From Chloroflexota bacterium (GTDB taxonomy: Bacteria; Chloroflexota; Anaerolineae; Aggregatilineales; J027), in assembly GCA_013112715.1 (NCBI GenBank), contig JABFGB010000002.1, forward strand, positions 62,001-126,000: DNA of 64,000 nucleotides, read 5' to 3'. The notes below the pieces were generated by a model. The model was not told the DNA's origin, searched no databases, and was given only the letters and a program-made list of their open reading frames with translations. Of this stretch, positions 20,620 through 50,476 are shown piece after piece (positions within the stretch are counted from its first letter, which is position 1; the number at the start of each line of letters is the position of its first letter). Position numbers and translations under genes: made by a program.

Positions 20620-20648
20620 TTGTCTAAATTTGCCTTTTGCTATATCCT
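20620..20648 (+). promoter_or_regulatory. Candidate promoter of the kinase-PDZ gene
   Basis: TTGTCT (20620-20625), a 17-bp spacer and TATCCT (20643-20648) give a moderate sigma-70-like promoter. Transcription would begin near 20655. This rules out a start codon at 20620 and supports the ATG at 20695. Confidence 0.4.
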
Positions 20649-20694
20649 AAAGGGCCATTATCAAAGGGTTTTCTTGTGCAGATGGCGGCCCCCA

Positions 20695-22359
20695 ATGAGC
20701 ACCGATTTGTCCGGACAGGTTTTAAATCAGTATGAATTATTAGATGTCCTCGGCAAAGGGGGCATGGCGGTGGTCTATCGCGCCCGCCAGACCAATATTA
20801 ACCGTTATGTGGCGATAAAGGTCATGTCTAACGCTCTGCCGGGTGATGATAATTTTTTGAGCCGTTTTAAGCACGAAGCCGACTTGATTGCGACATTGGA
20901 ACACCCCAACATTTTGCCGATTTATGATTATGGCAGTTCGGGGGAGTATTTCTATCTGGTGCTGCGCTTGATGGATGGGGGTAGTCTGGACGGCTACATG
21001 GGCGGGAATCCACTGACGCTACAAGATGTGGATCGTTTTCTGACCCAGATTGCCAGCGCGTTGGATTTTGCCCATCAGCATCGCGTGGTGCATCGTGATC
21101 TCAAGCCCAACAATGTGCTGCTAGACCGACATGGCAATGCCTATCTGATGGATTTTGGGATTGCCAAAGTTATTTCCGACTCCAACCTGACGACGACCAA
21201 CACCATTATGGGGACGCCGGGGTACATGGCCCCAGAGCAATGGAAACTGACCCCGTTTGACCATCGCATTGATGTGTACAGCCTCGGCATTATGACATAT
21301 GAGATGCTGACAGGCAGCACGCCCTTTATTGGTCAAACCCCGCTGCAATATATGTATGCTCATCTGCATGAACAGATTCCCCGCCCCAGCAATTTTGTCT
21401 ATGGGCTGTCGGCGGAAGCGGATAAGGTATTGATGCGGGCGACGGCCAAAGACCCCAAACGCCGTTATGCCACTGCAGGTGAGTTCGCAGCGGCATTTTC
21501 GGCAGCGCTGCGGGGTGAAAAGGTGAGTGCCGAGGGTGTGCCTGTTTCGGCCAAACCATCACGGACAGGGAAGCCCGCCCAAAATGCGCTGCAAGATGTC
21601 TTGGTGGACTTAGAATTATCTTCGGATGAGCAGCGTGGCCCTGCACCCAAATTAAATCAAATATTGGAAAAACCTGATGCGCCTCAAGAGGTTGATGACC
21701 ACGACTTGGCCCGGTTGTTAGAAGACGTGCTGGATATTCTGGGTGAATCTCCGGCAGAACCCTTGCCGGAAATTCAAGCTGACGAATCGCAGCGAGCAAT
21801 GACCAAACCCCATACATCGGAGGAGGGGAGTAAACCGCGTATCCCAGCGATCCGATTGCATGATTTGTTGTCTGGCTTGGTAGATTTGCCATCACGTTCT
21901 ACTCCCAAAATGGGCGATTTACTCCATGCCTCATCCGTACCAATCGAACCGCGCACACCACCAAAACGTTCTGAACGGATGGAAAATTTACTTTCGCAGT
22001 TGGTGGAACAGCCCGATGAGAAAAAAGTGCGGGTGCATCTCAATATGATGGATTTGTTGTCCTATGGAGGCAAAAACCATCGTTCGTTGGGGGTGAATGC
22101 GCAACAGGTGCGCCTACCCCCATCATTAGAAGCGTTGGTGGGCCAACCGACTGGCTTGATGTTGTTGGGGGTGGATATGGACGGGGCAGCGGAACGGGCC
22201 GGATTGTTTATGGGGGATATTTTGGTGTCGGCGGATGGTCAGCGGTTGCAGCATTTGGATGATTTGAATGTTGCTATGAATAAAGGTCAAGTGGAAACAA
22301 AATTGCAGCTAATAAGGGCTGGTCAGCTACAAGATTTCATGGTTTCGATGAGTGAGTAA
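20695..22359 (+). CDS. Ser/Thr protein kinase with C-terminal PDZ domain
   Basis: A 554-residue PknB-type kinase. The glycine loop is at 20-25 (GKGGMA), the ATP-binding lysine is K42, the catalytic loop is HRDLKPNN (133-140) and DFG is 153-155. The APE-like MAPEQWK closes the activation segment. After the kinase domain (to about 275) comes a linker of some 200 residues without a membrane segment, holding repeated leucine motifs (LHDLLSGLV, MENLLSQLV, LARLLEDVL). The C-terminal 75 residues look like a PDZ domain (GVDMDGAAERAGL, GDILVSADG). It is therefore probably cytoplasmic and scaffolded by PDZ contacts. Its stop lies 5 nt before a SUKH-like gene. The kinase half closely resembles the one at 23036, pointing to duplication. 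Confidence 0.88.
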   Translation: MSTDLSGQVLNQYELLDVLGKGGMAVVYRARQTNINRYVAIKVMSNALPGDDNFLSRFKHEADLIATLEHPNILPIYDYGSSGEYFYLVLRLMDGGSLDGYMGGNPLTLQDVDRFLTQIASALDFAHQHRVVHRDLKPNNVLLDRHGNAYLMDFGIAKVISDSNLTTTNTIMGTPGYMAPEQWKLTPFDHRIDVYSLGIMTYEMLTGSTPFIGQTPLQYMYAHLHEQIPRPSNFVYGLSAEADKVLMRATAKDPKRRYATAGEFAAAFSAALRGEKVSAEGVPVSAKPSRTGKPAQNALQDVLVDLELSSDEQRGPAPKLNQILEKPDAPQEVDDHDLARLLEDVLDILGESPAEPLPEIQADESQRAMTKPHTSEEGSKPRIPAIRLHDLLSGLVDLPSRSTPKMGDLLHASSVPIEPRTPPKRSERMENLLSQLVEQPDEKKVRVHLNMMDLLSYGGKNHRSLGVNAQQVRLPPSLEALVGQPTGLMLLGVDMDGAAERAGLFMGDILVSADGQRLQHLDDLNVAMNKGQVETKLQLIRAGQLQDFMVSMSE

Positions 22360-23035: not shown

Positions 23036-25285
23036 ATGAATCCAAATCTTGCTGGACAAGTTATTGATAACTATCAACTCATTGAAGTCATGGGTCGGGG
23101 TGGGATGGCAGTGGTCTATCGTGCCCGCCAACTCAATATCGAGCGTAACGTCGCCGTCAAGGTCATGTCCTCGGCATTGGCAGGCAGCCCTGATTTTATT
23201 GCCCGCTTCAAACGTGAGGCCGACCTGATTGCCAAATTGGAACATCCCCATATCCTGCCGATTTATGATTATGGGCAGGTGGGGGAATATGTCTATTTGG
23301 TGGTTCGTCTCATGGAGGGGGGCAGTCTGGATCGGCGGATTCGGGGCAAACCACTGCCACTGCCGGATATTGAAAAATTGATGGCCCAGATTGCGGGTGG
23401 GTTGGATTATGCCCATCAACATGGCATTGTGCATCGTGACCTCAAGCCGAATAATGTACTGCTCGATAATTTGGGCAATGCCTATTTGATGGACTTTGGC
23501 ATCGCCAAGATTATGCAGGGTACGCAGATGACGGCGACGGGCACAATGATGGGCACACCTGCTTATATGGCTCCCGAACAGTGGAAAGCCGAAGCTATTG
23601 ACCAGCGGGCCGATATTTACAGCTTGGGCATTATTCTATACGAGTTGCTGACGGGTGATGTGCCGTTCCATGCTGAAACACCCCATCAATTGATGTTTGC
23701 GCATTTGGAAAAAGAGATGCCACGTGCCAGCCTGAAAGTGCCGGGGCTGTCGTCGGCGATTGATGACGTGGTGTTGAAAGCCACCTCCAAGAAACCTGAA
23801 GATCGTTATCAAAAAGCGCTTGATCTGACCAAAGAGTTGCTTGAGGCCATTAAGGGCCAAAAAGAGGATTTGCGCGGCGACCTGATTCCATTGACGGTAC
23901 GGTTGGAACGTCCGCCTACGACAGAACCAACTGCGCCACCTGCCCCTGCTAAACCAACGCCCGAACAGGCCATGCGAACGGTGTTGGATGCGATGCCGCC
24001 AACCCAAACGCAGATGCCAGCATATACTCCGTCTGCGCCACAACCCCCGGTTCAGACGCCAATGCCGCACTATACACCACCCCCACCCCAAACTGGAATG
24101 GGGCAGATGCCACCCCCGCAGACGGGCATGGCACAAGGGCCATATCCACCCTATCAGACATCCTATCCGCAGCAAGCGCCGACTTTCCCGCCGCCTGCCG
24201 GATATACGATGCAGCCTGTGTATACTGCCAAGAAGAAAGGGCCGAATGTTTTAGGCATCATTGGTAGCCTTCTCGTGCTGCTTATTCTATTGGGCGGTGC
24301 AGCGGGCATTGTCTTGTTCGCGCTGAGTCAGGAAGATGACAAAGGGGGCGGGGATGAGACGAAAGCCGCTGATGTCAATCAATCCCCAGAGTCATCCGCT
24401 GAGGTGACCGAAGTCGCAACCGACAGTGGTACCCCTGAAAGTACCGCCACCGCGACGCAAACCGCTACAGCAACCAACACCGCCACACCCGAACCACCTA
24501 AAGTTGCGGAAGTGCCTGTTTTAACAGCACAACCTTCTATGCTCTGCCCAGATACGATGGACAGTCAGATGACAGTAGGAATACATGGACGTACCACCCT
24601 GATTGGCACGGGAACGACCAATGTCCGGGCAAATCCTGATGGTGATGTTATCACCCGTATCAACAATGGTACAGAATTTAATATCATTGGTGGGCCGGAT
24701 TGCGCAGGGGGTCGTTTTACATGGTGGCAGATTCAACTCGACAATGGAACGCAGGGCTGGGTTGCAGAGGGTGAAGGTAATTATTTTGTCGAGCCATGGC
24801 CTACCGTTACGCTGACCGAAAAAGTGTTGCAGGTCGTGGATGGCATTGAAAGCATTGATGTTCGCACTGCGGCTGATGAGTCCTCGGATACGGTTGCTAC
24901 GCTGTTCCCCGGTGACCGCGTAGGCTGGGACGGCACGCTGGAAGAGGCAGGCGGTATTCAATGGGCCAAAGTGACCACCTATGATGGCTCAACAGGCTAT
25001 CTACTCTTTGACGGCAATTTTGTCGCGCAAATTGATCCTCGCAAGGTCACAGCGGGTATATTCATCAATAAGACGCTTGAAGTCCTTTCGGCGGGCGATG
25101 GGGCCAACCTCCGCGAAAATTTTGATACTGCCTCGCCTCGTCTTCAAACGGTTGAGGAGGGGGCCAAACTTGAAGTGATTGGTGGGCCGGAGTTTGCCGA
25201 CTATTTTGTGTGGTGGCAGGTTCGCCTTACTGACGGCACGGAAGGCTGGATTGCTGACCATCCTACATGGTTTAACGTAGAATAA
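23036..25285 (+). CDS. Transmembrane Ser/Thr kinase with three outer SH3-like repeats
   Basis: A 749-residue receptor-like kinase. The kinase domain (1-275) has the glycine loop GRGGMA at 20-25, K42, HRDLKPNN (133-140) and DFG at 153-155. A proline/glutamine-rich cytoplasmic linker (about 295-400), one membrane segment at about 405-430, and a Thr/Ala-rich outer stalk follow. Three bacterial SH3 (SH3b) repeats complete the protein: NVRANPDG to TQGWVAEG, DVRTAADESS to STGYLLF, and LRENFDTASP to TEGWIAD. SH3b modules often bind peptidoglycan, so a role in sensing the wall, like PASTA kinases, is a reasonable inference. A strong terminator overlaps the stop codon. The next gene encodes a membrane protease. 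Confidence 0.9.
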   Translation: MNPNLAGQVIDNYQLIEVMGRGGMAVVYRARQLNIERNVAVKVMSSALAGSPDFIARFKREADLIAKLEHPHILPIYDYGQVGEYVYLVVRLMEGGSLDRRIRGKPLPLPDIEKLMAQIAGGLDYAHQHGIVHRDLKPNNVLLDNLGNAYLMDFGIAKIMQGTQMTATGTMMGTPAYMAPEQWKAEAIDQRADIYSLGIILYELLTGDVPFHAETPHQLMFAHLEKEMPRASLKVPGLSSAIDDVVLKATSKKPEDRYQKALDLTKELLEAIKGQKEDLRGDLIPLTVRLERPPTTEPTAPPAPAKPTPEQAMRTVLDAMPPTQTQMPAYTPSAPQPPVQTPMPHYTPPPPQTGMGQMPPPQTGMAQGPYPPYQTSYPQQAPTFPPPAGYTMQPVYTAKKKGPNVLGIIGSLLVLLILLGGAAGIVLFALSQEDDKGGGDETKAADVNQSPESSAEVTEVATDSGTPESTATATQTATATNTATPEPPKVAEVPVLTAQPSMLCPDTMDSQMTVGIHGRTTLIGTGTTNVRANPDGDVITRINNGTEFNIIGGPDCAGGRFTWWQIQLDNGTQGWVAEGEGNYFVEPWPTVTLTEKVLQVVDGIESIDVRTAADESSDTVATLFPGDRVGWDGTLEEAGGIQWAKVTTYDGSTGYLLFDGNFVAQIDPRKVTAGIFINKTLEVLSAGDGANLRENFDTASPRLQTVEEGAKLEVIGGPEFADYFVWWQVRLTDGTEGWIADHPTWFNVE

Positions 25286-25331: not shown

Positions 25332-26597
25332 ATGAGTATTTCAGAATCGCTTGATACGACCCATCCCATTGATATTCCTGAGCAGAGGCCACCCTCTTTA
25401 TTAGAAGCACCACCAGAGGAGTCGCATAAGGAGCGCTTTCGCCAAATTGTCCAAGCCTATATGACGATTGAGGAAGATGATTTGGCAATTGCCCCTGCCG
25501 CCAAACGCACGGCATTGGTATTTCGGGGGAAACTGCTTCAATCGGCAGCGGAGACCTATCCATCGCTTAGTGAAAAAATTGAAGCGGAGGGGTGTACTCT
25601 CTTTTTGCAGCGTGGGCCAGAAAAAAAGGATGAAGTGCTGATTGTTGAGGGGCAGGTGGTTCAGCGTGCCGTCAAAACGCGCTGGTGGTTTCATTTGGGC
25701 TTGTTGATTGTGACAATCTTTACCACACTGGCCGCGGGTGCCACCTTTGTGGGGTATGACCTTGACTCCATACGTGCAGCGGTGGCGGAACAAAACACCG
25801 TAACCCTGCGCGAAATGTACAATGGTGGACGGCAGTTTGCCTTTCCGCTGCTGCTGATTTTGGGTGTACATGAAATGGGGCATTACGTGGCCGCCCGTCT
25901 GCACAAAGTCAAAGTTACGCTGCCGTTCTTTATCCCCCTGCCGCTGTCCAGCCTAATGCCTTTATCACTAGGTACGATGGGGGCGGTGATTTTTATCACC
26001 AGCCCATTTAAAAACCGCAAGATGCTGTTTGATATTGGCTTGGCGGGGCCATTAGCCGGGCTATTGATAGCAATTCCTTTCTTTATCACAGGTCTCAAAT
26101 CCCAACCGACCATCGGGATTCCACTGGAATGGCTGCAACAACTTCGGGTTGATCGGGTGAGCGTGCCGCTTTTTCTAGAGTGGGTTGCCCGCTCCGTCTA
26201 TACCGAGCAGCAGGTTGCCCGTATTGATAGCACCGTCTTTTTTCGCCACCCACAGGCACTTGCGGCGTGGTTTGGAACGCTGTTGACTTTCCTCAATTTG
26301 CTGCCGCTCGGTCAATTTGATGGCGGGCATGTTGCTTATGCGCTGTTTGGCCGTCGGGTCGCGTGGCCGTTGGCATTTTCTATTGCTGCCATCTGCCTCC
26401 TGCTTGGCCTCATGGGTTTTTGGGCCGCATGGTTGATTTGGCCTTTATTTGCAGTGCTAACGGGTTTGCGTCATCCCCCACCGCACGACGATATTACCCC
26501 CTTGGGATTGCCCCGCATGATTTTGGGCGGCATTACGGTAGTCCTATTCTTCAGCCTGATTGTGATTACGCCATTTTATAGTTCCATCACCCGCTAA
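25332..26597 (+). CDS. Site-2-protease-like M50 zinc metallopeptidase
   Basis: A 421-residue membrane protein. Residues 1-115 are soluble and cytoplasmic in character. Six or so membrane segments then hold the HEMGH zinc motif (180-184) and the second ligand motif FDGGH (329-333, with D330). FNIGLAG-type loops (FDIGLAGPLAGLL) between them match the plant EGY and bacterial S2P group. No PDZ domain is inserted. Such proteases cut membrane-spanning substrates, often anti-sigma factors. It follows the SH3-repeat kinase by 46 nt, but a terminator lies between, so separate transcription is likely. Substrate unknown. The N-terminal domain has no recognised fold. Confidence 0.85.
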   Translation: MSISESLDTTHPIDIPEQRPPSLLEAPPEESHKERFRQIVQAYMTIEEDDLAIAPAAKRTALVFRGKLLQSAAETYPSLSEKIEAEGCTLFLQRGPEKKDEVLIVEGQVVQRAVKTRWWFHLGLLIVTIFTTLAAGATFVGYDLDSIRAAVAEQNTVTLREMYNGGRQFAFPLLLILGVHEMGHYVAARLHKVKVTLPFFIPLPLSSLMPLSLGTMGAVIFITSPFKNRKMLFDIGLAGPLAGLLIAIPFFITGLKSQPTIGIPLEWLQQLRVDRVSVPLFLEWVARSVYTEQQVARIDSTVFFRHPQALAAWFGTLLTFLNLLPLGQFDGGHVAYALFGRRVAWPLAFSIAAICLLLGLMGFWAAWLIWPLFAVLTGLRHPPPHDDITPLGLPRMILGGITVVLFFSLIVITPFYSSITR

Positions 26598-46594: not shown

Positions 46595-47074
46595 TTAACC
46601 TTGACCACGTTTCCGCATTTCGCGGTCTTGAATCTCTTTAAGCCGTTTGACCTCTTTGATTTTTTGCTGGCGGATTTTGTCGCGTTTTTTCTCATATTTG
46701 CGGATAGCCTTTGGGTCATTGGTGGTTGGGGGTAACACAGCCTCTTCTTTACGGCTGAAATCACCTCCGAGGGCGGCGGCAACAATCATAAAAGAGATAG
46801 CCAGCAAGACGATGGATAGAAAAACGGCGGCGGCAACATCCACTCGGCTGTAGCTATTGCCAGCAAACTTAAAGAGTTCATTTTGTTTTAATTCGGCTTC
46901 CAACACCCGTTGGTTAAAATCTTCATTCCGCTCTTTACCCTCGTTTACAATCAACGGCGCAGCGAGGAATGAAATCGCTATGATGGAGAGCACGAGTACG
47001 AAAGCCAAAACTGGGATAAGCTGGCTTCGCTTTTTTAGTTTTTCTTTTTCGGCTTCACGACGGGCGACACTCAT
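46595..47074 (-). CDS. Two-pass basic membrane protein within the hydroxylase operon
   Basis: A 159-residue protein. A basic N terminus (ARREAEKEKLKKRSQ) precedes membrane segments at about 20-43 and 80-105, separated by an acidic, charged stretch (EGKERNEDFNQRVLE). The C-terminal 50 residues are strongly basic and helical (KKRDKIRQQKIKEVKRLKE). The ATG overlaps the stop of the FAD/2Fe-2S gene (ATGA), so it is translationally coupled. Molybdenum hydroxylase operons do not usually contain such a gene. A role as membrane anchor or as a simple inserted gene are both possible. No family recognised. Confidence 0.65.
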   Translation of the reverse strand: MSVARREAEKEKLKKRSQLIPVLAFVLVLSIIAISFLAAPLIVNEGKERNEDFNQRVLEAELKQNELFKFAGNSYSRVDVAAAVFLSIVLLAISFMIVAAALGGDFSRKEEAVLPPTTNDPKAIRKYEKKRDKIRQQKIKEVKRLKEIQDREMRKRGQG

Positions 47075-48513
47075 GGGCTGACTTGCTCCTTCTGTTGTGC
47101 TATTTCGCTTGCAAGTTCAAAAGCATCAATGATTTTATAGTAGCCAGTACAACGACACAGATTACCCGAAATACTTTGGGCAATTTGTTCGCGGGTGGGG
47201 TGGGGATGCTCCTCCAACAATTTCGCACCGGACATTAGAAACCCGGGAGTGCAAAATCCACATTGCACACCACCCGTCTCTATAAAGGCTTGCTGAATCG
47301 GGTGCAGGGCAGTCTCTTTGGCTAATCCCTCCACGGTTGCGATGTCCGCTCCGTGTGCGCGGGGGGCAGGCACCATACACGCCATAACCGCGACCCCATC
47401 CAGATAAATGGTACATGCACCGCATTCCCCTTCGGCACAGCCTTCTTTCGTACCCGTTAAGTGAATATCATCACGCAAAAATCGCAACAGGGTCTTATTG
47501 GACGCGCCTGTTACCGTATGTTTTTCGCCGTTGACCGTCGTCACAATGGTGTCGCTGGCATCATCCTCGTGGCGAACGGAAGCGGGCAGGGGAGAATGCT
47601 GTGCGATGTGATTTGTGCCCCACAGCATCGTCGGATTTTCAGGCCAATGGGCACGTTCTTGATGATCTCGTAACATTCGTAGAGCACGTGCTGTCAGCAC
47701 CTTGACCATCTCAGTGCGATAGGCAGCGGTGGCGCGAACATCGCTAATCGGCTGGGGGGTTGCCGCCGAAAGTTTAGCTGCTTCGGCAATCGTGGCATCT
47801 GTTAGAGAGCGTCCCTGCAAATACTGTTCGGCATCCGGTACGCGGATAATGGTTGGGGCAACACTGCCGAGGGTGATTCGCGCATGGGTAAGCTGATCCC
47901 CATCAAAGCCGAGAATCACCGCGATATTGACGACGGAGATGGCTTGGGCGCGGCGTAGACCTAATTTCAAGAACACGCCCCGTTCATTTTTTGCCATCGG
48001 CTTGAAGCGAATGGCGGTGAGCAGTTCATCTGGTTGCATGGCGGTTTTGCGCACGCCCTTATAAAAGTCGGCAAAACTCAGGGTGCGCATACCAGCAGTC
48101 GAAGCGAGTGTGACCGACCCATCTAAAGCCCAAAGTGGCGTAATCGTATCATTGGCAGGGCTGGCGGTAATGAGATTGCCCGCGACGGTGGCTCGATTAC
48201 GAATTTGCGGCGCACCGACCTCCCAACAGGCTTGCGCCAATGGAAAGGCCTGCTGCACAATCAAATCACTGGCGACGACCTGATTATGCGTGACCAGTGG
48301 GCCAAGCTGAATAGATTGCCCGTCGAGCATAATGGTGTCGAGACCCTGCAAACGGGTAATATCTATCAACGTTTCAAGGTTAGGCCGCTGATTACGCTCA
48401 ATCTCGATCAAAATATCGGTTGCGCCAGCGACAATCCGCGCACTTTCACGGTGCTGGGCCAACAACGTCAATGCTTCGTCCAAATGGGTTACACTAAAAT
48501 AGTTTTTCCACAT
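47071..48513 (-). CDS. Fused FAD-binding and 2Fe-2S subunits of a molybdenum hydroxylase
   Basis: A 480-residue fusion. Residues 1-290 are the FAD domain (CoxM/XdhB type): VTHLDEALTLLAQ, VAGATDILIE, and GAPQIRNRATVAGNLITASPAND for flavin pyrophosphate. The C-terminal 165 residues are the CoxS/XdhC-type iron-sulfur part with CAEGECGACTIYL for the first cluster and CGFCTPGF plus CRCTGYY for the second. The order FAD then iron-sulfur is the reverse of xanthine dehydrogenase and these are usually two genes. The ATG at 48513 with AGGA upstream is well placed; the open frame to 48663 crosses the divergent promoter. It is the first gene of the operon. Confidence 0.9.
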   Translation of the reverse strand: MWKNYFSVTHLDEALTLLAQHRESARIVAGATDILIEIERNQRPNLETLIDITRLQGLDTIMLDGQSIQLGPLVTHNQVVASDLIVQQAFPLAQACWEVGAPQIRNRATVAGNLITASPANDTITPLWALDGSVTLASTAGMRTLSFADFYKGVRKTAMQPDELLTAIRFKPMAKNERGVFLKLGLRRAQAISVVNIAVILGFDGDQLTHARITLGSVAPTIIRVPDAEQYLQGRSLTDATIAEAAKLSAATPQPISDVRATAAYRTEMVKVLTARALRMLRDHQERAHWPENPTMLWGTNHIAQHSPLPASVRHEDDASDTIVTTVNGEKHTVTGASNKTLLRFLRDDIHLTGTKEGCAEGECGACTIYLDGVAVMACMVPAPRAHGADIATVEGLAKETALHPIQQAFIETGGVQCGFCTPGFLMSGAKLLEEHPHPTREQIAQSISGNLCRCTGYYKIIDAFELASEIAQQKEQVSP

Positions 48514-48533
48514 GAAATTTCCTGCCGTAGAAG

Positions 48534-48547
48534 GTCGCAAATGCGAC
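48534..48547. promoter_or_regulatory. Palindrome upstream of the hydroxylase operon
   Basis: GTCGCA-AA-TGCGAC is a perfect 6+6 bp inverted repeat 21 nt before the hydroxylase operon start. TGCGACAA recurs 40 bp away at 48582-48589, so a regulator may bind both. Function inferred. Confidence 0.4.
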
Positions 48548-48591
48548 AAGTACGCTAATGGTAGCACATCCGGCGACCTGTTGCGACAAAA

Positions 48592-48640
48592 TTTATCCGT
48601 TTTTACGAGAGGCCGTATTCCATTATAATCAACGGATAAA
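48592..48640 (+). promoter_or_regulatory. Promoter flanked by a 10-bp inverted repeat, before the PrsW-CNBD gene
   Basis: TTTACG (48602-48607), a 16-bp spacer and a perfect TATAAT (48624-48629) form the promoter. TTTATCCGTT (48592-48601) and AACGGATAAA (48631-48640) are perfect inverted copies just outside the -35 and over the start site. This looks like a repressor or looping operator. Confidence 0.55.
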
Positions 48641-48661
48641 ACCCTATCTCGAAAGCGCAAC

Positions 48662-50476
48662 ATGGATTTTTCAACCCTGATCGCTCATGTAATTACGATT
48701 GCGATACCTACCCTAACTATCTACCTCTTTTATGCGTTTGACCTTTATGGAACGGGACGAATCAGCACGGTATTGGTGAGTTTTGGTTGGGGAGCAATTG
48801 GGGCATTTGGCATCGCCAACCTGACCTATGAACTGGTATTTGGGGGTGTCGAATTTGAAACGCTGACCACGTGGGCGGCCCCCACACTTGAAGAACTGCT
48901 TAAATCGGCGGTGTTGATTTACCTTGTCTATCAACCACGCTTCCGCTACATTGTAGATGGCACCGTCTATGGAATCGCCGTTGGGATAGGCTTTGCGATG
49001 TCGGAAACCATCTTGATTTATCTGCCCAATGCGGGTGATGCAGCGCTTTCGACTGCGATCAGCCGGGTGCTTTCGACCTCGTTAATGCACGCCACCGCCA
49101 GCGCAATGGTCGGGATTCTATTTGGACGTTATCGGCGGGCGACCTCGCAGAATAAACGCATCTTCCCCATTGTGGGCATCTTGCTTGCTATTGGGGTTCA
49201 TACTATTTACAACGCGGGTCTCATCCAAATCGAAGATTACAGCGATGGGCGATTTTTGCTGCTGTTTGCCATTACGTTGGGTTTTTCGGGCAGTGCCTTC
49301 ATTGCATTTGTGATGAATCAGGGTCTTCAAGAAGAAAAACGCCGCTTTGAACAGACTCTCGGCTTGGAGGTGGGGGTATCGGCGGGTGAACGCAAGGCCG
49401 TTCAACGTCTTGGTGGAAATGGTATCGAGCAGATTTTGGGCGAGATGAAGGAGTTTTTTGGGCAGGAAAACATCACCCTCATTCGCCGTCTACTGGTGGT
49501 GCAAGCCAATATCGGGATTTTGCAGAATAACCTGAAAAGCCAAGTCAGTGATCGCTTGAAACGGGCATGGCAGGAGGAAATCGCCGAATATCAGCGCGAA
49601 AATGACGAAATCCGTACCCAGTTGGGTGTGTATGTCACCAGTTTTATGCGTCGAGTGTTTCCTGCCGAAGATCAGACCCTTTGGGATACGGTCAACGCTG
49701 AATTGGCCGATTATGACCCGACGCTGGTACATACCTTTGATATGTTTATGCGTGTTTCCGAATTGGCGGAGACGTTTACGGTGGAGCAGCTATCGGCGAT
49801 GGCCGAGCGTCTGAGCCATATGGAAATTTTCAGGAATGTGTCGCTGACTAATTTGGAAAATCTGTGTCGGGCGATTGTGGTTGAAAATTATCCTGATGGC
49901 GCAGTTATTTTCGATCAGGGCGCGACGGGCGATTCCATGTATATGATCGAAGACGGCAACATCAATGCCTATGTGACCTCTCACCGTGATGGTGAAGACA
50001 AGTTCTTGCGGACGTTCCGGGCAGGCGACGTGGTGGGCGAGTTTTCCTTGCTGGATGGGCAACCCCGTTCGGCGCGTGCCCTTGCGGTGGGAGAGGTCAA
50101 AGTCTTGGTGTTAAAGCGCCAGGCGTTTATGATGTTTATGCAAAGCCGTCCCCAAGTCGTCCTAGCCATGCTGCAATATCTCGCTGAAAAACTACGCTAT
50201 ACTACGGCTTCTGTTGAGGCCAGCACCAGTTGGGCTACCCGCATCGCACAGGGCAATTATGATGAACCTTATTTGTTTAACCCGCCTGCCACCACCATCA
50301 CCATTCCCGATGAACTACCCCCTGCTTTAGAACCACATGAACTTTCGGCAGACACCCCTGAAATTATCGGCACTTTGTTAGTACGGGCGGCGGGTGCCCT
50401 CAAAGAACGGGAACGCCTCTTGCGGAAGCGCATTAGTGATACATGGAAGCGTGTCACCATCAGCGAAAAGTCGTGA
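48662..50476 (+). CDS. PrsW intramembrane protease fused to cyclic-nucleotide-binding domain
   Basis: A 604-residue membrane protein. Residues of about 1-225 form a PrsW/Abi-type core: PTLEELLK with E77-E78, MSET with E115, H143 in SLMHATA and H180 in VHTIYN, the expected catalytic acidic and histidine residues of PrsW glutamic-type proteases. A charged helical linker (about 225-385) leads to a CNBD of the CAP family (about 385-510) whose phosphate-binding cassette VGEFSLLDGQPRSA keeps Glu (E460) and Arg (R469), so ligand binding is plausible. PrsW cleaves anti-sigma factors in Bacillus; here cAMP or cGMP could gate proteolysis. An arginine-rich C-terminal tail ends at 604. It has its own promoter with an inverted-repeat operator. 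Confidence 0.87.
   Translation: MDFSTLIAHVITIAIPTLTIYLFYAFDLYGTGRISTVLVSFGWGAIGAFGIANLTYELVFGGVEFETLTTWAAPTLEELLKSAVLIYLVYQPRFRYIVDGTVYGIAVGIGFAMSETILIYLPNAGDAALSTAISRVLSTSLMHATASAMVGILFGRYRRATSQNKRIFPIVGILLAIGVHTIYNAGLIQIEDYSDGRFLLLFAITLGFSGSAFIAFVMNQGLQEEKRRFEQTLGLEVGVSAGERKAVQRLGGNGIEQILGEMKEFFGQENITLIRRLLVVQANIGILQNNLKSQVSDRLKRAWQEEIAEYQRENDEIRTQLGVYVTSFMRRVFPAEDQTLWDTVNAELADYDPTLVHTFDMFMRVSELAETFTVEQLSAMAERLSHMEIFRNVSLTNLENLCRAIVVENYPDGAVIFDQGATGDSMYMIEDGNINAYVTSHRDGEDKFLRTFRAGDVVGEFSLLDGQPRSARALAVGEVKVLVLKRQAFMMFMQSRPQVVLAMLQYLAEKLRYTTASVEASTSWATRIAQGNYDEPYLFNPPATTITIPDELPPALEPHELSADTPEIIGTLLVRAAGALKERERLLRKRISDTWKRVTISEKS

Follow-up and report, generated by a model that had tools for sequence, protein, structure and literature searches.

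The window, i.e. the whole 64-kb stretch of DNA that was analyzed, comes from a genome of the Anaerolineae (Chloroflexota). It contains a gene in which a PrsW intramembrane protease domain is joined through a helical linker to a cyclic-nucleotide-binding domain (CNBD). The gene and its parts are located as follows:

48662..50476, + strand: PrsW-linker-CNBD fusion protein, 604 aa, ATG start; an open reading frame lies at exactly these coordinates
48662..49330, + strand: PrsW intramembrane protease domain, residues 1-223 (Pfam PF13367, E 5.8e-26)
49331..49813, + strand: helical linker, residues 224-384, retained in unfused relatives
49814..50257, + strand: CNBD with C-helix, residues 385-532 (Pfam PF00027, E 1.8e-20)
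50258..50476, + strand: weakly conserved C-terminal tail, residues 533-604 (from alignment, model and dN/dS)

Domains and conserved residues of the fusion protein

In the Pfam search, PF13367 (PrsW-protease) was found at residues 35-193 with 91.7 bits (cut-off 23.5) and PF00027 (cNMP_binding) at residues 408-495 with 73.1 bits (cut-off 27.5). These were the only Pfam domains in the window protein; a PilZ, DNA-binding or kinase partner domain was not among them. The architecture is the one that a first-pass annotation had read from the sequence, with a PrsW core within residues 1-225, the region singled out beforehand for a profile search, and a helical linker leading to a CAP-type domain. The protein is a member of the PrsW family and not an orthologue of Bacillus subtilis PrsW, as it scored 59.1 bits against the equivalog model NF033739 (cut-off 225).

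The motifs of the protease are EE77-78xxK81, F111xxxE115, H143 and H180xxxN184, which all lie inside transmembrane (TM) helices predicted in the model. The core residues named earlier (E77-E78, E115, H143 and H180) are all present and, together with K81, F111 and N184, invariant in a 13-row alignment of the window protein and 12 relatives with 49-96% identity. Seven TM helices were predicted for the PrsW domain, and the charges of the loops indicate an N-out/C-in orientation, which would place the linker and the CNBD in the cytosol. A sequence relative of the PrsW domain with a solved structure was not found in the PDB search.

The linker contains the motif DPTxVHTFDMFM (352-363), which is invariant in the 13-row alignment. 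The ligand cassette of the CNBD was determined to be 459-GEFSLLDGQPRSA-471 and holds the Glu460 and Arg469 described before. R469-S470-A471 are invariant in the same alignment, and position 460 is a Glu in 11 and an Asp in 2 of the 13 rows. A pair of threonines (T514-T515), likewise invariant there, was found at the place of CAP T127-S128 in a hand alignment. Sequence matches of the CNBD in the PDB were PKA/PKG regulatory domains and CRP proteins. The domain may bind cAMP or cGMP.

The AlphaFold model of the fusion had a mean pLDDT of 62.6; the TM core and the CNBD were fair and the linker was poor. The mean pLDDT of the CNBD part was roughly 70-88 per block. For this part, the modelling proposed by the first-pass annotation gave cAMP-binding CRP proteins (GlxR, Mtb CRP) as the best Foldseek matches, with a TMt of 0.86 for 2pqq. 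Foldseek matches of the full-length model that extended across the TM part had an rmsd of >25 A and were discarded as meaningless, so that only the CNBD matches were taken as meaningful. Coupling between PrsW and the CNBD would run through the linker, which is uncertain in the model.

Four further genomes of the genus contain orthologues of the window gene (87-96% identity), and the dN/dS against these orthologues was 0.04-0.055. In both orthologue loci inspected, the neighbours of the gene are conserved. The open reading frame is thus neither a chance ORF nor an assembly join. The dN/dS was 0.052 for PrsW, 0.048 for the CNBD, 0.026 for the linker and about 0.125 for the C-terminal tail. The linker is therefore the slowest-evolving part of the fusion, which suggests a functional element and not a mere spacer.

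Named from their sequences, the neighbours are molybdenum hydroxylase genes on one flank and genes for an M24 peptidase, a PIG-L deacetylase and an ABC transporter on the other. A 159-aa membrane protein without a Pfam match (46595-47074, − strand) is encoded within the molybdenum-hydroxylase operon (CoxM/S-like, CoxL), which runs divergently from the PrsW-CNBD gene; the protein and its operon are conserved across the genus. The listed ORF at 47071-48663 (− strand) overlaps the start of the PrsW-CNBD gene by 2 bp. Since its orthologue in L008 begins with MWKNYF, the true start of this ORF probably lies inside the listed frame by about 150 bp, so that a divergent promoter region would remain between the two genes. 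A Peptidase M50 (site-2-protease-like) gene was observed at 25332-26597 (+ strand), some 22 kb away from the PrsW-CNBD gene; two Ser/Thr kinase-like genes (20620-22359 and 23036-25285) lie immediately upstream of it.

PrsW relatives and a conserved gene cluster in the Anaerolineae

Four PrsW proteins are encoded in the genome: the window protein, a 50%-identical PrsW-CNBD protein on contig C31, a diverged PrsW-CNBD protein on C5 and a short PrsW protein on C18. The window, C31 and C5 types are present in all five genomes of the genus. In the C5 paralogue (L042:1486-3024), the protease motifs are intact and the ligand Arg is lost (GDMEILDSEPSTV), leaving a degenerate cassette with a D and no Arg. 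The Glu/Asp and the Arg of the cassette are retained in all other fused copies. The C5 type thus appears to be a natural ligand-blind version, and because it keeps its protease motifs with a broken cassette, proteolysis need not always depend on the ligand.

A contig scan for relatives gave 14 loci, all from Chloroflexi/Anaerolineae MAGs; as it used one seed and short patterns, other phyla are still possible. In the maximum likelihood tree, the window type falls into a fused clade (97/94) together with the C31 type, L009-L018 and L024. In another family of the class, most relatives consist of PrsW and the linker without a CNBD. Where PrsW and CNBD are encoded by separate genes, these abut or overlap by 4 bp, and they are fused in the lineage of the window gene. 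One further fusion, in L063/L095, falls inside the unfused family. Because the genes of its relatives overlap by 4 bp, this fusion could result from one indel, be it genuine or an error of sequencing, and it is not strong evidence.

The genes around PrsW were read from the loci of the relatives and then checked with HMMs built for the purpose. The recurrent order begins with an ECF sigma factor and a putative anti-sigma factor, which are often followed by a secreted beta-propeller protein. Next come PrsW, with or without a fused CNBD, a CNBD protein, a MinD-like ATPase, a winged-helix protein and a class III cyclase. Among the unfused PrsW loci, one of which lies at a contig end (L127) and one of which is doubtful (L094), the sigma/anti-sigma pair was found in 13 out of 15 and a CNBD gene in 14 out of 15. 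An ECF gene within 8 kb would be expected by chance in about 5% of the loci (16 ECF-like hits in 5.55 Mb). The binomial probability of 13 sigma-linked loci out of 15 is 4e-16; this value ignores shared ancestry and therefore shows conservation, not independent events.

Seven fused loci are also sigma-linked (L013, L014, L015, L089, L131, L091 and L095), of which L089 is the C31 paralogue of the same genome and L013 the tree neighbour of the window gene. A second, soluble CNBD gene is located directly downstream in ten fused loci, and a cyclase of the same type was found in 14 loci. In most unfused clusters (L092, L095, L120-L130), a second MinD-like ATPase gene was observed just upstream of the sigma gene in divergent orientation. 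Two MAGs have a partner set different from the sigma cluster, as genes for a DUF2207 membrane protein and a 170-aa zinc-ribbon membrane protein lie directly upstream of PrsW-CNBD (L009:2627-5112, L017:3498-5975).

With the same HMMs, no sigma, anti-sigma or cyclase gene of the cluster types was found in the 64-kb window, and no sigma gene was found near seven related loci (L009-L012, L016-L018). The link to sigma and anti-sigma factors suggested by the first-pass annotation is thus present in the paralogue and in relatives, and absent from the 64 kb around the window copy. The proposed listing of such pairs in the genome yielded a single pair of the cluster type, located on C31 beside the PrsW-CNBD paralogue. 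The sigma factor was single-copy in 9 and the anti-sigma factor in 10 of the 12 genomes searched.

The cluster sigma factor has regions 2 and 4, detected in L014:4869-5408 as PF04542 and PF08281. The putative anti-sigma factor (143-180 aa) is encoded directly downstream. It has an N-terminal helical part, a first TM helix, a loop of about 15-20 residues, a second TM helix and an RRK end. The NCBIfam model 'anti-sigma factor' (NF052375) matched 11 out of 17 of these proteins with a best E of 2.3e-7, which is below its cut-off; no Pfam match above cut-off was found, and a profile of the family gave only chance matches in the PDB. A structure model made from 3 sequences reached a pLDDT of 58.9, which is too low to search for similar folds.

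The cluster cyclases contain two catalytic domains each and can be aligned over their full length with human ADCY10 (soluble adenylyl cyclase). Since the metal Asp residues are found in domain 1 and an Asn/Arg pair in domain 2, one complete active site is expected per cyclase. The Lys which specifies adenine in ADCY10 is not conserved at the usual place; the base of the product is therefore not predictable, and the ligand may be cAMP or another cyclic nucleotide. The genome of the window contains 12 class III cyclase matches, and site-2 proteases are also present. Its best match to the cluster cyclase is located elsewhere, on contig C15, with 29% identity.

Proposed mechanism and alternative explanations

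We lean towards a cyclic-nucleotide-gated PrsW module that controls an ECF sigma factor via cleavage of its anti-sigma factor, the window copy being a dispersed paralogue. In this module, the class III cyclase would make a cyclic nucleotide, which would bind the CNBD. The CNBD is part of the PrsW chain in this lineage, whereas in another family it would be a subunit of its own, encoded by the adjacent gene. Often there would be a second, soluble CNBD protein as well. The change in the CNBD would be passed through the conserved helical linker to PrsW and would set protease activity or substrate access. PrsW would then cut within or close to the short extracytoplasmic loop of the small two-TM anti-sigma factor, and site-2 and cytosolic proteases would complete the degradation, so that the ECF sigma factor would be freed.

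Cleavage of the anti-sigma factor by PrsW is supported by the order of the genes. Control of this step by a cyclic nucleotide had first been suggested by analogy; gene order in the relatives takes the suggestion beyond analogy, with cAMP as one candidate ligand. A split-gene form in relatives, as found here, usually indicates that the domains of a fusion act together. In addition, a cytosolic signal would be more natural here than in RsiW-like systems, because the anti-sigma factor has almost no extracytoplasmic part. The window copy would most likely act in trans on the single anti-sigma factor of the genome, encoded on C31, or on another small membrane protein. Its substrate is a guess, since a sigma gene lies neither near the window locus nor near L009-L012 and L016-L018.

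Gating by cAMP or cGMP would not apply if the CNBD were a dimerization or docking module, or if it bound another ligand (c-di-GMP or another cyclic nucleotide). We regard this as unlikely, if the least so of the alternatives. It is in line with the retention of the degenerate C5 type in all five genomes of the genus and with a GGDEF-like gene upstream of the C31 sigma gene at a distance of about 3 kb, and the missing adenine Lys of the cluster cyclases counts for another ligand. However, the cassette Glu/Asp and Arg are kept in every other fused copy, the Thr pair of the C-helix is invariant and the clusters repeatedly contain cyclases of one type.

The substrate may also differ from the one proposed. 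PrsW could process or release membrane-anchored surface proteins, instead of or besides the anti-sigma factor, and one protease may cut both; we consider this rather improbable. A G[TS]A motif was found in the extracytoplasmic loop of 11 out of 18 anti-sigma factors and after the first TM helix of 9 cluster-encoded secreted or membrane-anchored proteins, and among 107 other proteins that begin with a TM helix just 2 have it after that helix. On the other hand, the motif was defined after it had been noticed and also fits the small-x-Ala rule of the ordinary signal peptidase, and the sigma/anti-sigma pair is a more constant neighbour of PrsW than the surface proteins.

In large secreted proteins of the clusters, an LFGTAG-like motif just past the N-terminal TM helix resembles the GTA of the anti-sigma loop (L014:5409-5840, L014:8510-9139, L014:9214-14292, L089:9998-19135 and similar loci). 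A common protease site of anti-sigma factors and secreted proteins is possible, and so is an ordinary signal-peptidase site.

With a similarly low probability, the window copy might be a redundant paralogue without a sigma-related role, acting for instance in the turnover of different membrane proteins, with the 159-aa protein as one candidate. The lack of cluster-type sigma, anti-sigma and cyclase genes in the window would fit this, as would the divergent operon with a small membrane protein that is conserved in the genus. Against it stand the strong purifying selection, the intact motifs and the sigma-linked tree neighbour L013.

A Pycsar-like anti-phage effector, in which a cyclase would respond to phage infection and the CNBD would trigger a membrane effector that does harm, is very improbable: cyclase and CNBD-membrane effector follow the Pycsar plan and the PADLOC models for Pycsar effectors and PycC match the CNBDs and cyclases, but these matches are limited to the common CNBD and PF00211 domains, the gene order is widely conserved with sigma and anti-sigma genes, the window copy has no cluster-type cyclase within 64 kb, and mobile defence genes would not be expected to keep orthologues at one locus throughout the genus. 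Pycsar identity was rejected, as the PADLOC matches were to shared domains and a cluster-type cyclase was not found in the window.

Relation to known systems

A literature search, with most subscription papers outside its reach, found no paper joining PrsW with a cyclic-nucleotide-binding domain, none linking intramembrane proteases with cyclic-nucleotide domain architectures and none tying ECF sigma factor, anti-sigma factor and adenylate cyclase in the Chloroflexi; the papers listed for PrsW together with cAMP dealt almost entirely with cardiology. The first-pass annotation had known of no described system of this kind. For PrsW and a CNBD this agrees with the search, while a predicted PrsW-PilZ fusion, Leptospira LIC_20173, was described in January 2026, with a proposed link from c-di-GMP to anti-sigma cleavage (PMC12943098). 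This predicted protein is the closest precedent of the window fusion. Both proteins have PrsW with a C-terminal cytosolic second-messenger domain and a proposed anti-sigma target. They differ in the domain, which is a CNBD here and PilZ (c-di-GMP) there, and belong to unrelated lineages; a sigma/anti-sigma/cyclase cluster as found in the Anaerolineae relatives is not mentioned in the passages on the Leptospira protein (PMC12943098).

PrsW has also been described as an N-terminal domain in polymorphic toxins (PMC3482391). As in the window protein, an extra C-terminal domain follows; in the toxins this is a toxin whose release by autoproteolysis was proposed, whereas it is a sensor domain here (PMC3482391).

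The system of PrsW (YpdC), RsiW and SigW in B. subtilis shares the protease family with the motifs EExxK, FxxxE, H and HxxxN, and also its tie to an ECF sigma factor and a membrane anti-sigma factor. B. subtilis PrsW is not known to have a CNBD or a linker of this kind. Unlike in B. subtilis, the putative anti-sigma factor here has two TM helices joined by a very short loop, and genes for cyclases and CNBD proteins are neighbours.

The CNBD resembles those of CRP/GlxR and the PKA regulatory subunits in its fold, the phosphate-binding cassette and the threonines of the C-helix, but is attached to a membrane protease. A bacterial CNBD fused to an enzyme is also found in Bd1971 (6hq2-6hq7), an EAL enzyme under cAMP control, where it controls c-di-GMP hydrolysis instead of proteolysis. 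The combination of a class III cyclase with a CNBD-containing effector is shared with Pycsar, from which the clusters differ by a distribution that is not defence-like and by sigma/anti-sigma genes instead.

In the systems that have been studied well, the signals that trigger regulated intramembrane proteolysis of anti-sigma factors come from outside the membrane. For the Anaerolineae we put forward, more tentatively than the module as such, a widespread variant in which a cytosolic cyclic nucleotide, and not extracytoplasmic stress, would switch the ECF sigma factor on by allosteric activation of an intramembrane protease that acts on a two-TM anti-sigma factor, i.e. second-messenger-gated regulated intramembrane proteolysis. 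If true, a cytosolic messenger would start the cascade, and cyclic-nucleotide signalling would be tied to ECF sigma control. The split and fused forms together with the broken-pocket paralogue make the coupling directly testable. Taken with the PrsW-PilZ prediction in Leptospira, the fusion suggests that second-messenger sensors have been joined to PrsW proteases repeatedly.
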